NCBI RefSeq assembly: GCF_000332315.1
Contig: NZ_KB235937.1
Location: 445,328 to 480,911 of the forward strand
Source: Prochlorothrix hollandica PCC 9006 = CALU 1027
GTDB taxonomy: Bacteria; Cyanobacteriota; Cyanobacteriia; Prochlorotrichales; Prochlorotrichaceae
Direction: 5' to 3'
Length of the DNA: 35,584 nt
Shown: piece by piece, positions 11,862 through 16,848 of the stretch
How positions within the stretch are numbered: the first letter of the stretch is position 1
How the letters are laid out: each line of letters opens with the position of its first letter
The notes under the pieces: generated by a model
Told to the model about the DNA's origin: nothing
Seen by the model: the letters and a program-made list of their open reading frames with translations, nothing else
Databases searched by the model: none
Program-made: the position numbers and the translations under genes

Positions 11862-12203
11862 TAGCGATCTCTTGATCCTTCTGGGGTGGAATCGACGATC
11901 GGGGTCAACGTCTCTAGGAAGCAAGCCATATCTTGGCTGAACGGGTCTCGAACGGCTAAAGCTAGGGCTAAATTAGCTTGTCGTTGGCTACTCTTGATGT
12001 CGCTGCCGTAGGCATGGCGGACAAAATGGCGAAAGCTGCGCAGGGGGTTGAGAATTTGGAGGGTTGGGGCAGAGAGAAAAGCGGGGCGTATATCTTCGAC
12101 GGCGCTGATCAACTTGCTCAATCAGCATGAACGGAGGGGGCACACCACACGACCCATTGAGGACTGCTGTAGGCCAATTATTTCCTTGACAGATCGATGC
12201 GAT
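11861..12203 (-). pseudogene. HEPN / HepT-like RNase toxin gene, truncated, interrupted and frameshifted
   Basis: Reading leftward, ASICQGNNW (to 12174) fits the VDGS-PQGENW segment before the last helices of HepT-like proteins. A half-MITE (12133-12171) is then inserted. Then MLIEQ resumes in the same frame. Near 12118 the frame shifts into ISAVEDIRPAFLSAP and FRHFVRHAYG. The latter contains R-x4-H-x-Y (R31, H36, Y38 counted from the TTG at 12121), the RNase motif of HEPN toxins. The N-terminal half is absent: a GC-rich repeat takes over beyond about 12205. HepT toxins normally pair with an MNT nucleotidyltransferase, and none is adjacent. The last 86 codons remain open and end TAATG with the next Uma2 gene. 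Confidence 0.65.
12133..12171 (-). mobile_element. Half copy of the 103-bp hairpin MITE
   Basis: On the minus strand this begins TACAGCAGTCCTCAATGGGT and runs through GTGTGGTGTGCCCCCTCC, then stops exactly at the apex of the hairpin seen in the full copies at 13087 and 16182. The other half is missing. It lies in frame within the HepT-like remnant. Confidence 0.8.
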
Positions 12204-12364: not shown

Positions 12365-13087
12365 CTAGAGGTCTGGTTCGATGCCCAAAGCCCGAAGCTG
12401 CTCCGTCAGGCGAGCCACCCGCTCCCGTTCCGCCGCGATCGCCCGTAGCGCCTCGTCTGCCCGTTGCTTTTCCTGTTCCGCCCGCTGCTTTTCCTGCTCC
12501 GCCTGTTGCTGCGCTCGCTGGGATTGGGCCTTCAGTTCCACAGTTGTCAAAAATGGTTCGCCATTGGGGTAAAACACTTGCAGCGTTGCTTGGCTCCAAT
12601 CCAATTGAATCCCTAACAGAGGGCTGACCCAAGCGTCTTCTGCATCAATCGTCTGAAGGAGATTTTGCTGGCGTACAAACCCTGTAAAGTCATGGCGATC
12701 GGGGTCGTATAGATAATATTCTTCGACTCCGTAGCGATCGTAAAACTGAAACTTGCGATGCATTTCCCGCAGCGTATTGCCCGGTGAGAGAATCTCAAAT
12801 ACCACCTGCGGCACAATATTAGCCTCTTGCCATTGGCGATAGGAACCCCGATCGCCCTTGGGTCGCCCAAACACCACAAATACATCCGGCGCAACCCGAA
12901 TCTCCGGCTTTCCTTCCACCGGATACCACAGCAAATCCCCCGCCACAAACACCTCTGGATTATCCGCAAACAAACACTCTAGGTTTTCCTTAAGCAGGAC
13001 AATTAGACGAAATTGCTGGGTATTATCAGCCATGGGTTGCCCATCACTGTCGGGATAGTGAATGGGAGGGGCAGAAGCTAAAGTCAT
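12365..13087 (-). CDS. Uma2 family endonuclease-like protein with C-terminal coiled coil
   Basis: Core motifs are complete: VAPDVFVVFG (D68), PQVVFEILSPGN (E98), MHRKFQFY (K112) and GVEEYYLYDPD. After the nuclease-like domain, residues about 185-235 are a charged coiled coil made of EQEKQRAEQEKQRADEALR-type repeats ending LTEQLRALGIEPDL, a tail often seen on cyanobacterial Uma2 proteins. The ATG (complement of CAT at 13085-13087) shares its first base with the terminus of a 103-bp MITE. The only AGGA-like ribosome site lies inside the MITE end, seven nt before the ATG. The native leader has therefore been displaced by the element. Confidence 0.92.
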   Translation of the reverse strand: MTLASAPPIHYPDSDGQPMADNTQQFRLIVLLKENLECLFADNPEVFVAGDLLWYPVEGKPEIRVAPDVFVVFGRPKGDRGSYRQWQEANIVPQVVFEILSPGNTLREMHRKFQFYDRYGVEEYYLYDPDRHDFTGFVRQQNLLQTIDAEDAWVSPLLGIQLDWSQATLQVFYPNGEPFLTTVELKAQSQRAQQQAEQEKQRAEQEKQRADEALRAIAAERERVARLTEQLRALGIEPDL

Positions 13088-13189
13088 ACAGCAGTCCTAA
13101 ATGGGTCGTGTGGTGTGCCCCCGGAGGGGGCACACCACACCAAGGGTTTCAGCCATCGAGATGCCTACAACTGATTTAGGGTTGCTGTA
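13087..13189 (-). mobile_element. 103-bp hairpin MITE, copy A, abutting a start codon
   Basis: The ends are TACAGCAGTCCTAAATGGGT and, inverted, TACAGCAACCCTAAATCAGT: imperfect inverted repeats beginning with TA, as in elements that duplicate a TA target. The centre (13108-13140) is a perfect 15-bp stem with a GGA loop. It has no ORF. Removing it with one TA restores AACTATGACT on the minus strand, so it appears inserted in the TA of T-ATG at the Uma2 start codon. Read toward the gene, its end gives TTTAGGACTGCTGT directly before ATG. Confidence 0.8.
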
Positions 13190-13197
13190 GTTGATAA

Positions 13198-13812
13198 TTA
13201 AGGGGGTGTAAGATTGTGGAATGTATCGATCAAGATCCCCAAAATATGATCGACTTGAGTGATAAAATATTCATCAAAATCAATCGTGGCGATTTGGTTT
13301 TCATAGCGCAGGAATTTCCAGTTGCTTCCTGTGGTGACAATGCCTAAAATCCAAGGAATAGCATGGCCTTGGCGATTGTTGAAAACTTGAGCCGCAACCA
13401 TTTCAGCAATACATTGTCCATAGCCCATTTTAATATTTTCGTTCTTGGCTTCTACCACGCAAACAACCGGTGCCCTAGGAAAAACTTGATCGGGGCTGTT
13501 GCTGAGCAAAAAATCACAAAATCCTGCTAATCCCTGTTGGCTGTCTACGGTAAACTCTACCCCCGAAAAGAATCCAATCTTGTGGCTGAGATGGTGACGG
13601 AGTTCCAATAAAAGAGGGGCAATTATCAACTCCGATCGGGCTTTTTCCGTATTAATGTTGAGGGCTAAGGGAACTAAATCCTGGAGAACTTCCTGGAAGT
13701 TAGGCCGGGGTGCAATCGGGCAAACCGTTGCAAAGAGGGAGTTACCAGAGGTGACCTGAACCCCCAAGCGCTGAACCACATCATCAATCGTTTTGAAGTC
13801 ACTGTAGGCCAT
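13198..13812 (-). CDS. Cyanobacterial hypothetical protein with nuclease-like E...D...EAK pattern (copy 2)
   Basis: This is a paralogue of the gene at 9962. It has the same MAYSDFK opening, E61 in INTEKARSELIIAP, D100 in FCDFLLS and E121-A-K123 in VVEAKNEN, then YGQCIAEMVAAQVFN. The region between residues 10 and 45 differs, while the nuclease-like core is well kept. Its ATG overlaps the end of the upstream Uma2 gene by 14 nt, so the two are probably co-translated. The pattern suggests a PD-(D/E)XK fold, but the function is unknown. MITE copy A starts 9 bp beyond its stop codon. Confidence 0.78.
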   Translation of the reverse strand: MAYSDFKTIDDVVQRLGVQVTSGNSLFATVCPIAPRPNFQEVLQDLVPLALNINTEKARSELIIAPLLLELRHHLSHKIGFFSGVEFTVDSQQGLAGFCDFLLSNSPDQVFPRAPVVCVVEAKNENIKMGYGQCIAEMVAAQVFNNRQGHAIPWILGIVTTGSNWKFLRYENQIATIDFDEYFITQVDHILGILIDTFHNLTPP

Positions 13813-14488
13813 GGTTTGGGGTTGGTGATGGGTATGGGAGTGATGCTAAAACATCGGCCAAATTACCCGCAAGGAGGGCAGGAACATCAAGCACTAAACC
13901 AGGGAAACGATCGCCGCTAAGCCGCCCGCGATCGTCGGGAATTTGCCGCTGATACTCCCCCTCTCGCAAGCAAAACCAATCTATTTCCCCATCCAGCACC
14001 CGCCACACTAGATATTCCTGCACCCCATGGCGACGGTAGAGATTAAATTTTTGGTGCAGGTCATCGGATGCGGTGCTAGCGGCAATTTCGACAATCAGTT
14101 CCGGTGCCCCTTCAATATAGTCATCCTCACTAATGCGCGATCGTCCCCCAGCTTCCTCCTTCACCCGCAAAATAATATCCGGCTGGGGTTCATTGTCTAA
14201 ATCTAGCCGTACTGTTGCGTTATCCGCCACCTCCAATTGCGATCGAGTTGCGGCATAAACTGACAGCCAAGTGAGGAGGAGGGCATGGGGGTGGGCATGG
14301 TGGCGAAAACGCACCGCCGCAGCCATATAAACGGTTCCTTCAATTAGTTCTGCTTTTTTGAGGCGGGGCATGGCGGCATAACGGCGCTCAAATTCCAAGC
14401 GGTTGAGGCGATCTCCCGCTTCTAAGGCAGGAATCATGGGGGGGAAGGCTGCATCACTGGATTCAGGGTCATGGATTCCGATCGTCAC
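13799..14488 (-). CDS. Uma2 family endonuclease-like protein
   Basis: Motifs: PQPDIILRVK (D104), APELIVEIAAST (E134), LHQKFNLY (K147) and GVQEYLVW, a complete Uma2 site. It is a close paralogue of the gene at 34218: both carry ALE/LLESGDRL, RRYxAMPxLKKAELIEG and SRISEDDYIEGAPELIVE. The start at 14488 is GTG with a weak GGAT upstream. An ATG at 14437 is the alternative and would match the paralogue's start better. It overlaps the downstream EAK-motif gene by 14 nt, which suggests these two form one unit. Confidence 0.9.
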   Translation of the reverse strand: MTIGIHDPESSDAAFPPMIPALEAGDRLNRLEFERRYAAMPRLKKAELIEGTVYMAAAVRFRHHAHPHALLLTWLSVYAATRSQLEVADNATVRLDLDNEPQPDIILRVKEEAGGRSRISEDDYIEGAPELIVEIAASTASDDLHQKFNLYRRHGVQEYLVWRVLDGEIDWFCLREGEYQRQIPDDRGRLSGDRFPGLVLDVPALLAGNLADVLASLPYPSPTPNHGLQ

Positions 14489-14522
14489 TTTGATCCGGCT
14501 GAAGAATTACAGGCTTGGGCAT

Positions 14523-15077
14523 TTAAAGGAGGGGCAATAATCGTTGCAGCTCTTTACAGGCTGCTTGAAGCGATGAAGGTGCTGTGGTAGGTAGTATTTT
14601 TTGATGTTTACAGTTTTCAGCAAGCTGTTCAACTTCATCTTTGCAGGAAGATTCATTGTGCTGGGCTTTAGAATAGCTTGCTACTTCATCAACTTTCTCA
14701 TTGCGTAAATACCGAATCCAGGTCTCGATGTTACGTTTGGGAATAAAAATAGTAATTGCTTCATCAAATTGACGATTCTTTTGACCATCATTACTTAAGT
14801 TGACCTCTAATTTTTGTAGTCGTGACTGTAACGTATTTGTATCAGCATCAATAAAAACCACGAGACCGATCTTAACTTGATTCTTTCTTTGACGATAGGC
14901 TCTAACTTCCTTTGGATACTGGTCACAAACATATTGCTCGCCCGATTGGCTTCCTGGAGGACAGATTTGAGCACGAGGTTGACCTGAAAAGCCATACTTT
15001 TTAAGAAAGTATCGAGCAAAAACCTCCTGTTGGCGATCTTCACAGAGGATCACAATTTGCACTCTATTCCGGCCCAC
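14523..15077 (-). CDS. TOPRIM-like protein, partner of the adjacent ATPase
   Basis: I recognise the arrangement rather than a named family. E13 in IVILCEDRQQE and D77-x-D79 in GLVVFIDADTN match the Glu and DxD metal-binding residues of TOPRIM nucleases. FIPKRNIETWIRYL (residues 111-124) resembles the segment after the DxD strand in DUF4276/DUF4435-like proteins. It starts with GTG at 15077, preceded by GAGG eight nt upstream, and overlaps the ATPase gene by 14 nt, so the pair is coupled. Such ATPase plus TOPRIM pairs occur in anti-phage systems (OLD nucleases, PARIS). Compared with OLD proteins, the nuclease here is a separate short polypeptide. AT-rich composition contrasts with the Uma2 neighbours and suggests transfer. 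Defence function is inference. Confidence 0.7.
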   Translation of the reverse strand: MGRNRVQIVILCEDRQQEVFARYFLKKYGFSGQPRAQICPPGSQSGEQYVCDQYPKEVRAYRQRKNQVKIGLVVFIDADTNTLQSRLQKLEVNLSNDGQKNRQFDEAITIFIPKRNIETWIRYLRNEKVDEVASYSKAQHNESSCKDEVEQLAENCKHQKILPTTAPSSLQAACKELQRLLPLL

Positions 15078-16182
15078 TTAACCATCCTCGTGCAATGAGT
15101 TCTGAAATTGGCAGTCCAGAATCTTTTGCTTCTTCATTGCTGATGCGTTTGACTCGAACGGGTGCATTACTCTGGCGTTCAAACCAGTATCCGATTGGAG
15201 ATGCAAGAAGATAGTTAATTAATTCTGGGTGGTGGGAAATGAGCAAAGCTTGAAGCTGTTGACGACTGCATAGATCATATAACTCGACAAGCCAAGGCTG
15301 AATTTCTGGTAAGGCCAAAAAATTCTCCGGTTCATCGATCAAAATTGTGTAGTCTTCAGATTTTATACTATGCAGGAGTGTATAGAGTGCAATCAGAACT
15401 TTTTGTCCATCTGAGAGTTCTTTGAACCGATATTCAACCGAACTAGAGTAGCTAGAATCTGAAGTAAAATGCAGTTTCAAAACTAGAATTTGTTCACTCA
15501 CTCGGTTGAATTTAAAATGACTAAATCCTTCCAAGACCCCTTTCAAAATAGAATTTAATTCAGTAACTTTCCCCTGATCTTCAGAAAGGTGTCGATACCA
15601 AGATACATAATTCTCCATGTGAGGACTTAAGCGAACAGACTCCTGTTGACTTTCATCGCCCATTAAGCAAGGGATAATTTGGACGATAATTAATCGTTCA
15701 ATTCGCTCCTTGAACCACGTAAGCTTAGTATTATCATTTCTTGGGGTTAGTATAGAAAGCATAGATTGGGACCAGTCAAAAGAGTAAGCTGGACCTTCAG
15801 AGTGATTATCTTGATATAGTTGAACTTCACCAAGTTCAAACTTTAGCAAAGGTTGTTGATCGAACCACAGCCGCTCATACTCCACGCGACTTTTGCCTTG
15901 ATGATGACTAACTCCCAGTTCATACTTATAAAGTCCACCATTACCACTTATCTCTAGCTCAAAGCTTTGTGTACCAGAGTTTTGCCAACGTGTGTAGTCT
16001 GAATCTTCAAAGATTTTATTAACTTTTTGATCGCCGCTAATAAAAGATTGGATTTTTCGTAGAACCTCAAATATGGTAGATTTACCGACCCCGTTAGATC
16101 CAAGAAGCAAGTGAATTGAATCAAAGGTAATTTCAAAGTTTACTAAGCACCTAAAATTATTAATATAGAGCCTTTTTAACAT
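15064..16182 (-). CDS. AAA/ABC-type ATPase (AAA_21-like) of a putative two-gene defence module
   Basis: The start MLKRLYINNFRCLVNFEI is typical of SMC/OLD-like ATPases. Walker A is GSNGVGKST (28-36), the ABC signature is LSDGQK (256-261), Walker B is ILIDEPEN (280-287) and the H-loop is LISHHPE. Length 372 matches AAA_21 proteins. The downstream TOPRIM-like gene overlaps it, so they probably form one complex in which ATP sensing controls a nuclease. The ATG at 16182 shares its first base with the end of MITE copy B, which provides AGGA seven nt upstream; the original leader is gone. Composition is AT-rich relative to flanking genes. Confidence 0.85.
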   Translation of the reverse strand: MLKRLYINNFRCLVNFEITFDSIHLLLGSNGVGKSTIFEVLRKIQSFISGDQKVNKIFEDSDYTRWQNSGTQSFELEISGNGGLYKYELGVSHHQGKSRVEYERLWFDQQPLLKFELGEVQLYQDNHSEGPAYSFDWSQSMLSILTPRNDNTKLTWFKERIERLIIVQIIPCLMGDESQQESVRLSPHMENYVSWYRHLSEDQGKVTELNSILKGVLEGFSHFKFNRVSEQILVLKLHFTSDSSYSSSVEYRFKELSDGQKVLIALYTLLHSIKSEDYTILIDEPENFLALPEIQPWLVELYDLCSRQQLQALLISHHPELINYLLASPIGYWFERQSNAPVRVKRISNEEAKDSGLPISELIARGWLSGPE

Positions 16183-16284
16183 ACAGCAGTCCTAAATGGG
16201 TCGTGTGGTGTGCCCCCTCCGGGGGCACACCACACCAAGGGTTTCAGCCATCGAGATCCTTACAACTGATTTAGGGTTGCTGTA
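16182..16284 (-). mobile_element. 103-bp hairpin MITE, copy B, abutting a start codon
   Basis: It has the same length, orientation and ends as copy A (TACAGCAGTCC to GGTTGCTGTA). The 15-bp stem (16203-16235) is identical, but the three-base loop is TCC where copy A has GGA, its reverse complement. Removing it with one TA restores ATACTATGTT on the minus strand: the target was again the TA overlapping a start ATG. The remaining 87 bp to the next gene hold no feature I can support. Confidence 0.8.
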
Positions 16285-16371: not shown

Positions 16372-16848
16372 CTAGCGCTGAATCTGGTGGGGAAAATCCG
16401 GTACTAAACCCGATCGGGTTAATGCCCCCGATCGATCGTAGAAGGTCACCCTAGCCTGGTCATCACACACCCACACCTCCAGGGCCCCCGCCGCCAAATA
16501 AAGCTGCCGCTTCCCTAACATTTCTTCCTCCGTATTTCCGGCGGACGTTACCTCAATGCAAATTTCCGGGGCGATCGAAGCCGCCACTTCTGCTTCAATT
16601 TGGGCAAATCGATCGCTCGAACACCACACCACATCCGCCACCTTGACCCCATCCGTTGTTGCGATCGCACATTCCGGCATCACTTCTCCCGTCTTGAGAA
16701 ACGTCTCCAATACCCGCTGGATTCGCCCCTGGAAAAATGAATGCTTAACCTTGACCGGACTCATCACAACTTGTCCCCATCGATTGAGTTCCACCTTAAA
16801 TGGAAGATTCTGTAACTGGGGATGCTCACAAACTTCTTGCCAATTCAT
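16372..16848 (-). CDS. Short Uma2 family endonuclease-like protein
   Basis: At 158 residues this is a short Uma2 variant that begins MNWQEVCEHPQLQNLPFKVEL. Motifs: VKVADVVWCS (D72, with Ala instead of the usual Pro), APEICIEVTSAGNT (E99), MLGKRQLY (K113) and GALEVWVCDD. The fold looks complete despite its length. The start is ATG at 16848. It stands alone between MITE copy B and the nucleotidyltransferase. The 157-bp gap upstream (16849-17005) shows no feature. Confidence 0.88.
   Translation of the reverse strand: MNWQEVCEHPQLQNLPFKVELNRWGQVVMSPVKVKHSFFQGRIQRVLETFLKTGEVMPECAIATTDGVKVADVVWCSSDRFAQIEAEVAASIAPEICIEVTSAGNTEEEMLGKRQLYLAAGALEVWVCDDQARVTFYDRSGALTRSGLVPDFPHQIQR

Follow-up and report, generated by a model that had tools for sequence, protein, structure and literature searches.

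An IS630-related MITE of Prochlorothrix hollandica whose insertions at start codons are probably tolerated

High copy number is a property of Nezha and other cyanobacterial MITEs. The target of RUP, an element of Streptococcus pneumoniae, is TA. RUP is described as a MITE of 107 bp that is related to IS630-Spn1 and has a high copy number (PMC3049150). The Correia elements of Neisseria alter the expression of neighboring genes through promoters, IHF sites, and RNase III, and the ERIC elements of enterobacteria do so through RNase E (PMC10969869). A 2024 review of MITE effects covers promoters, IHF sites, RNase processing, gene inactivation, and sRNAs, with the ribosome binding site (RBS) unmentioned (PMC10969869). 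A search of the open-access literature found no report of a MITE that donates a Shine-Dalgarno (SD) sequence, which is weak evidence that such donation would be novel. Here, we describe a MITE that ends on the start codons of two genes in a 35,584-nucleotide stretch at positions 445,328–480,911 of contig NZ_KB235937.1 in the P. hollandica genome (the window).

Copies A and B and the genes that they adjoin

The window contains two full copies and one partial copy of the element. The relevant features are as follows.

12132..12171, minus strand: copy C, incomplete, consisting of 40 nt of the left end
12365..13087, minus strand: Uma2-family gene (PF05685), its ATG beginning with the A of the TA duplicated at copy A
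13087..13189, plus strand: copy A, full MITE, 103 bp from TA to TA, left end towards the Uma2 gene
13095..13098, minus strand: AGGA of copy A, 7 nt 5' of the ATG, overlapping an in-frame TAG
13108..13140, no strand assigned: central hairpin palindrome of copy A, GTGTGGTGTGCCCCC...GGGGGCACACCACAC
15064..16182, minus strand: AAA_21/AAA_15 ATPase gene (Pfam), its ATG beginning with the A of the TA duplicated at copy B
16182..16284, plus strand: copy B, full MITE, left end towards the ATPase gene, with the central palindrome in the opposite orientation to that of copy A
16190..16193, minus strand: AGGA of copy B, 7 nt 5' of the ATG
16203..16235, no strand assigned: central hairpin palindrome of copy B, center inverted

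Copies A and B both carry, on the minus strand, TTTAGGACTGCTGT followed by the ATG of the Uma2 or the ATPase gene. The first-pass annotation had placed a 103-bp MITE at the TA of T-ATG, and the junctions of copies A and B confirm this placement; among the 93 full copies found in a 1.2-Mb sample of the genome, 90 have TA at both ends. Copies A and B are 95% identical over 107 nt, and several copies 100% identical to copy A occur at other genome sites. Among all copies, the center of the palindrome is found in two orientations, CCCCCGGAGGGGG and CCCCCTCCGGGGG, a pattern that inversion of the hairpin tip would produce. The closeness of copies A and B is unremarkable: they are spaced 3.1 kb apart, and when about 15 start-landing copies per genome were simulated, about 11% of the runs contained a pair that close.

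Sequence comparison confirmed that the ATGs assigned to the two genes are their genuine starts. The homologues of the Uma2 protein align from residue 1 (e.g., 66% identity over residues 1–239), and the alignment with the ATPase homologues (58–60% identity) spans residues 1–372, with the same ATG first. An upstream start is excluded for both genes because an in-frame TAG lies inside the element, 12 nt 5' of the ATG (TAG GAC TGC TGT ATG). The element was found at none of the starts of the Uma2 and ATPase homologues that were inspected. Uma2 genes are very numerous in this genome, with 25 genome matches to one window member, and Pfam assigns three of them to the window (12365–13087, 13799–14488, and 16372–16848). 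Elsewhere in the window, a 12-bp tandem repeat, CGAACAGGGACT, runs in frame at positions 945–1100 within an ORF at 214–1212.

Identity and distribution of the element

The element is 103 bp long, has imperfect terminal inverted repeats (TACAGCARYCCTAAAT), and contains no transposase ORF. Its left-end 25-mer has 560 genome matches at ≤3 mismatches, and its 15-nt terminus has 814 intact-end matches genome-wide; the copy number is roughly 400–560 in the 5.65-Mb genome. An IS630 transposase (DDE_3, PF13358) is encoded at four genome loci, which have inverted repeats and subterminal sequence in common with the MITE. The intact IS630 copies are about 1.18 kb long, and their ends, TACAGCAGTCCCAAATGGGTCGTATT and CTTACAACTGACTTGTGACTGCTGTA, match the left and right ends of the MITE in the same order. 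Because the resident IS630 loci share the ends, their order, and the TA target, the element is, as judged from its sequence, an IS630-related non-autonomous MITE. One IS630 copy is fused in frame with an upstream ORF, so that a frame of 584 aa is open across the DDE_3 match (C9, approximately 1,292,500–1,294,000; 442–2052 of the extract); the cause is that the left inverted repeat, which is open upstream, contains the ATG of the transposase.

No known RNA family in Rfam matches the element, and neither an intrinsic terminator nor a sigma-70-like promoter was found within it. A leader mini-ORF (MAETLGVVC...RPI*), which has an SD of its own and whose TAG overlaps the AGGA, was considered as a translational-coupling or bicistronic leader-peptide module. 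This candidate was rejected because its ATG is missing in 107 of 251 copies and its substitutions are spread evenly over the codon positions, with no coding pattern.

The element was not found in 58 other genomes of the same class (none of the same genus or family), one of which has a weak match of 25 nt. A cross-genome 17-mer scan gave 16 matches, about the number expected by chance, of which seven lie in cyanobacteria with related ends. Such related MITE ends, GATTTAGGAYTGCTATA, occur in other cyanobacterial genomes, often with about 90–113 bp between the repeats, and 6/29 are at starts, the same rate as in the host. Some of these related MITEs terminate at the start codons of genes, those for response regulators among them.

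Insertion at start codons

The copies of the element were removed in silico, genes were re-called on the empty sites, and the insertions were compared with all noncoding TA sites. Gene starts were assigned by a simple home-made caller, used in the same way for insertion and background sites. The gene-level statistics cover 1.2–1.6 Mb of contiguous sequence and all 68 TATG ends matching TTTAGGRNTGCTGTATG; the genome-wide test conditional on TATG combined these 68 ends with all further TATG insertions of the sampled sequence.

Insertion occurs at TA with the flanks [A/C]TA[T/G] favored, and the copies survive chiefly in intergenic sequence. In the 1.2-Mb sample, 7 of 83 insertions lie on start codons, compared with 1.5% of noncoding TA sites. 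After weighting for context, the expectation rose to 2.8% (p = 0.009), and omission of the index copies A and B left 5/81 (p = 0.08). When only noncoding TATG insertions are considered, 13/60 (22%) are on called starts versus 16.4% of background TATG sites (p = 0.17), and the genome-wide count, manual reading included, is 14–16 start insertions versus about 12 expected. Neither comparison shows a significant excess over the TATG insertion background, so that the start-codon targeting that looked significant in the 1.2-Mb sample is gone in the genome-wide conditional test. The rate of insertion at start codons is about that expected from their TATG context. A target preference that includes start codons had been proposed in the first-pass annotation; this proposal was not upheld, and about 96% of the copies lie away from start codons. 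A transposase that directs insertion to start codons would account for the raw enrichment (9/111 versus 1.6% of noncoding TA sites), but most of this enrichment is explained by the TAT context, and we regard such direction as very improbable.

The start-landed genes include a dihydroorotase gene, pyrC (TIGR00856, residues 3–341), an NAD-binding 2-hydroxy-3-oxopropionate-reductase-like gene, UPF0227, NurA, an MscS-cNMP channel, ShlB and TPS secretion genes, and a glycosyltransferase; a probable transporter is start-landed at a CGG end. The intact N-termini of start-landed genes, among them pyrC, NurA, UPF0227, and the 2-hydroxy-3-oxopropionate-reductase-like gene, confirm that insertion at the start leaves the protein whole. 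Of 14 start-landed genes, 13 had no SD before insertion, which is not a significant difference from the baseline.

Ribosome binding and comparison with known elements

The AGGA had been described as lying at a good SD position, and the element as a possible portable RBS. The first of these descriptions is borne out: host SD cores peak at 8–9 nt 5' of the ATG and are high at 7–10 nt, and the 7-nt spacer of the AGGA falls within this optimum. The second agrees with the spacing but not with the predicted accessibility of the SD. In the predicted fold of the read-through leader with its flank, the distal inverted repeat is paired with the AGG and almost the entire spacer (probability of being unpaired about 0), and the AGG region is partly freed only when the distal arm is absent. 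The full-length 203-nt leader has a predicted minimum free energy of about −63 to −65 kcal/mol, and pairing of its terminal repeats extends as far as the A of the AUG.

The surviving copies also carry some signals around gene starts. At 0–19 nt upstream of starts, insertions are depleted (4 versus 9.9 expected, nominal p = 0.03, one of several tests made), whereas those on the ATG are not. At 20–29 nt upstream, the genome sample has a slight excess (9 versus 5.2); in 7/9 cases the left end points towards the gene, and several of these insertions sit just 5' of a native SD. Left ends with AGGACTG are on convincing starts, as judged by eye with the data already seen, in 11/34 TATG insertions, compared with 3/34 for the remaining AGG ends and 1/12 for those with CGGACTG (together 4/46). 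The corresponding p-values, again nominal and drawn from several tests, are 0.03 against the other AGG ends and 0.01 against AGG and CGG ends combined; without copies A and B they become 0.06 and 0.03, respectively, and 0.09 with automatic calls. AGGATTG ends, which also contain AGGA, are at starts in just 1/10 cases.

These signals bear on two ways in which the element might act on translation. According to the portable RBS reading, the left end gives an AGGA at the right distance, insertions on the ATG keep or raise translation, and selection retains them. The spacer, the upstream depletion that spares ATG sites, and the bias towards AGGACTG ends are in line with this reading. However, the predicted pairing would hide the AGG and spacer, the end bias weakens when copies A and B are omitted, the AGGATTG ends seldom lie at starts, and most host genes do not use an SD (a core is present in only 28% of host ATG genes); we consider it quite unlikely. 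The opposite effect, a cis-acting off-switch or RNase-processed leader, would arise if pairing of the repeats in the 5' UTR masks the SD and AUG until cleavage of the stem, or transcription from within the element, releases them. It is supported by predicted folding, in which the terminal repeats pair to the A of the AUG and opening of the distal arm partly exposes the region. No sigma-70-like promoter for such internal transcription was found in the element. In addition, pyrC is normally required for pyrimidine synthesis, and the insertion at its start speaks against strong silencing. RNase III is known to cleave Correia transcripts (PMC10969869), and SD-less genes are reported to require an unstructured start region (PMC3121790). 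Such a switch is conceivable, though unlikely. Since SD-less genes reportedly need an open start region and the predicted stem pairs the SD, masking of the SD would be at least as likely as its donation. A combination of the two effects, in which insertion at T-ATG would swap SD-less initiation for an SD hidden in a stem and exposed by RNA cleavage, so that about 15 unrelated genes would come under common post-transcriptional control, is a speculative model that we hold to be improbable.

The explanation that we favor, and consider probable, is that a non-autonomous, TA-targeting MITE of the IS630 (Tc1/mariner-like) group inserts at T-ATG among other sites and that these insertions are tolerated at a near-neutral rate. 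The resident 1.18-kb IS630 element would probably mobilize it in trans. A TA is present wherever a T precedes a start codon, and duplication of this target would rebuild the ATG; the start insertions would be tolerated because the rebuilt ATG leaves the protein unbroken. The 14–16 start insertions of the genome would thus have accumulated at a roughly neutral rate, and the AGGA beside the ATG would come from the terminal sequence itself. Modest help from this SD is possible when the stem is open, but the stem of the read-through RNA should mask the AGGA. The asymmetry between left and right ends at starts and the depletion at 0–19 nt hint that selection on translation also shapes the surviving copies. 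We consequently regard the element as an ordinary high-copy MITE with tolerated start-codon insertions. It illustrates how a TA-targeting MITE can occupy a start codon without breaking the gene, as the duplication restores the ATG. About 15 natural cases in one genome, with similar ones in other cyanobacterial genomes, make the choice between RBS donation and RBS masking directly testable.

Compared with known systems, Correia and ERIC are likewise short palindromic intergenic MITEs, but their sequences are unrelated to that of the present element, and their effects involve promoters, IHF sites, and RNA processing rather than SD donation. Nezha is likened to it by kind, as a high-copy cyanobacterial MITE, and not by sequence comparison. 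Among IS630-family insertion sequences, the resident IS630 element shares its ends and TA target, whereas the MITE lacks a transposase gene. RUP differs in sequence and host, and the accessible part of its description does not mention ends placed at start codons; the two elements are alike in length, in inverted repeats that match a resident IS630, and in high copy number (PMC3049150).
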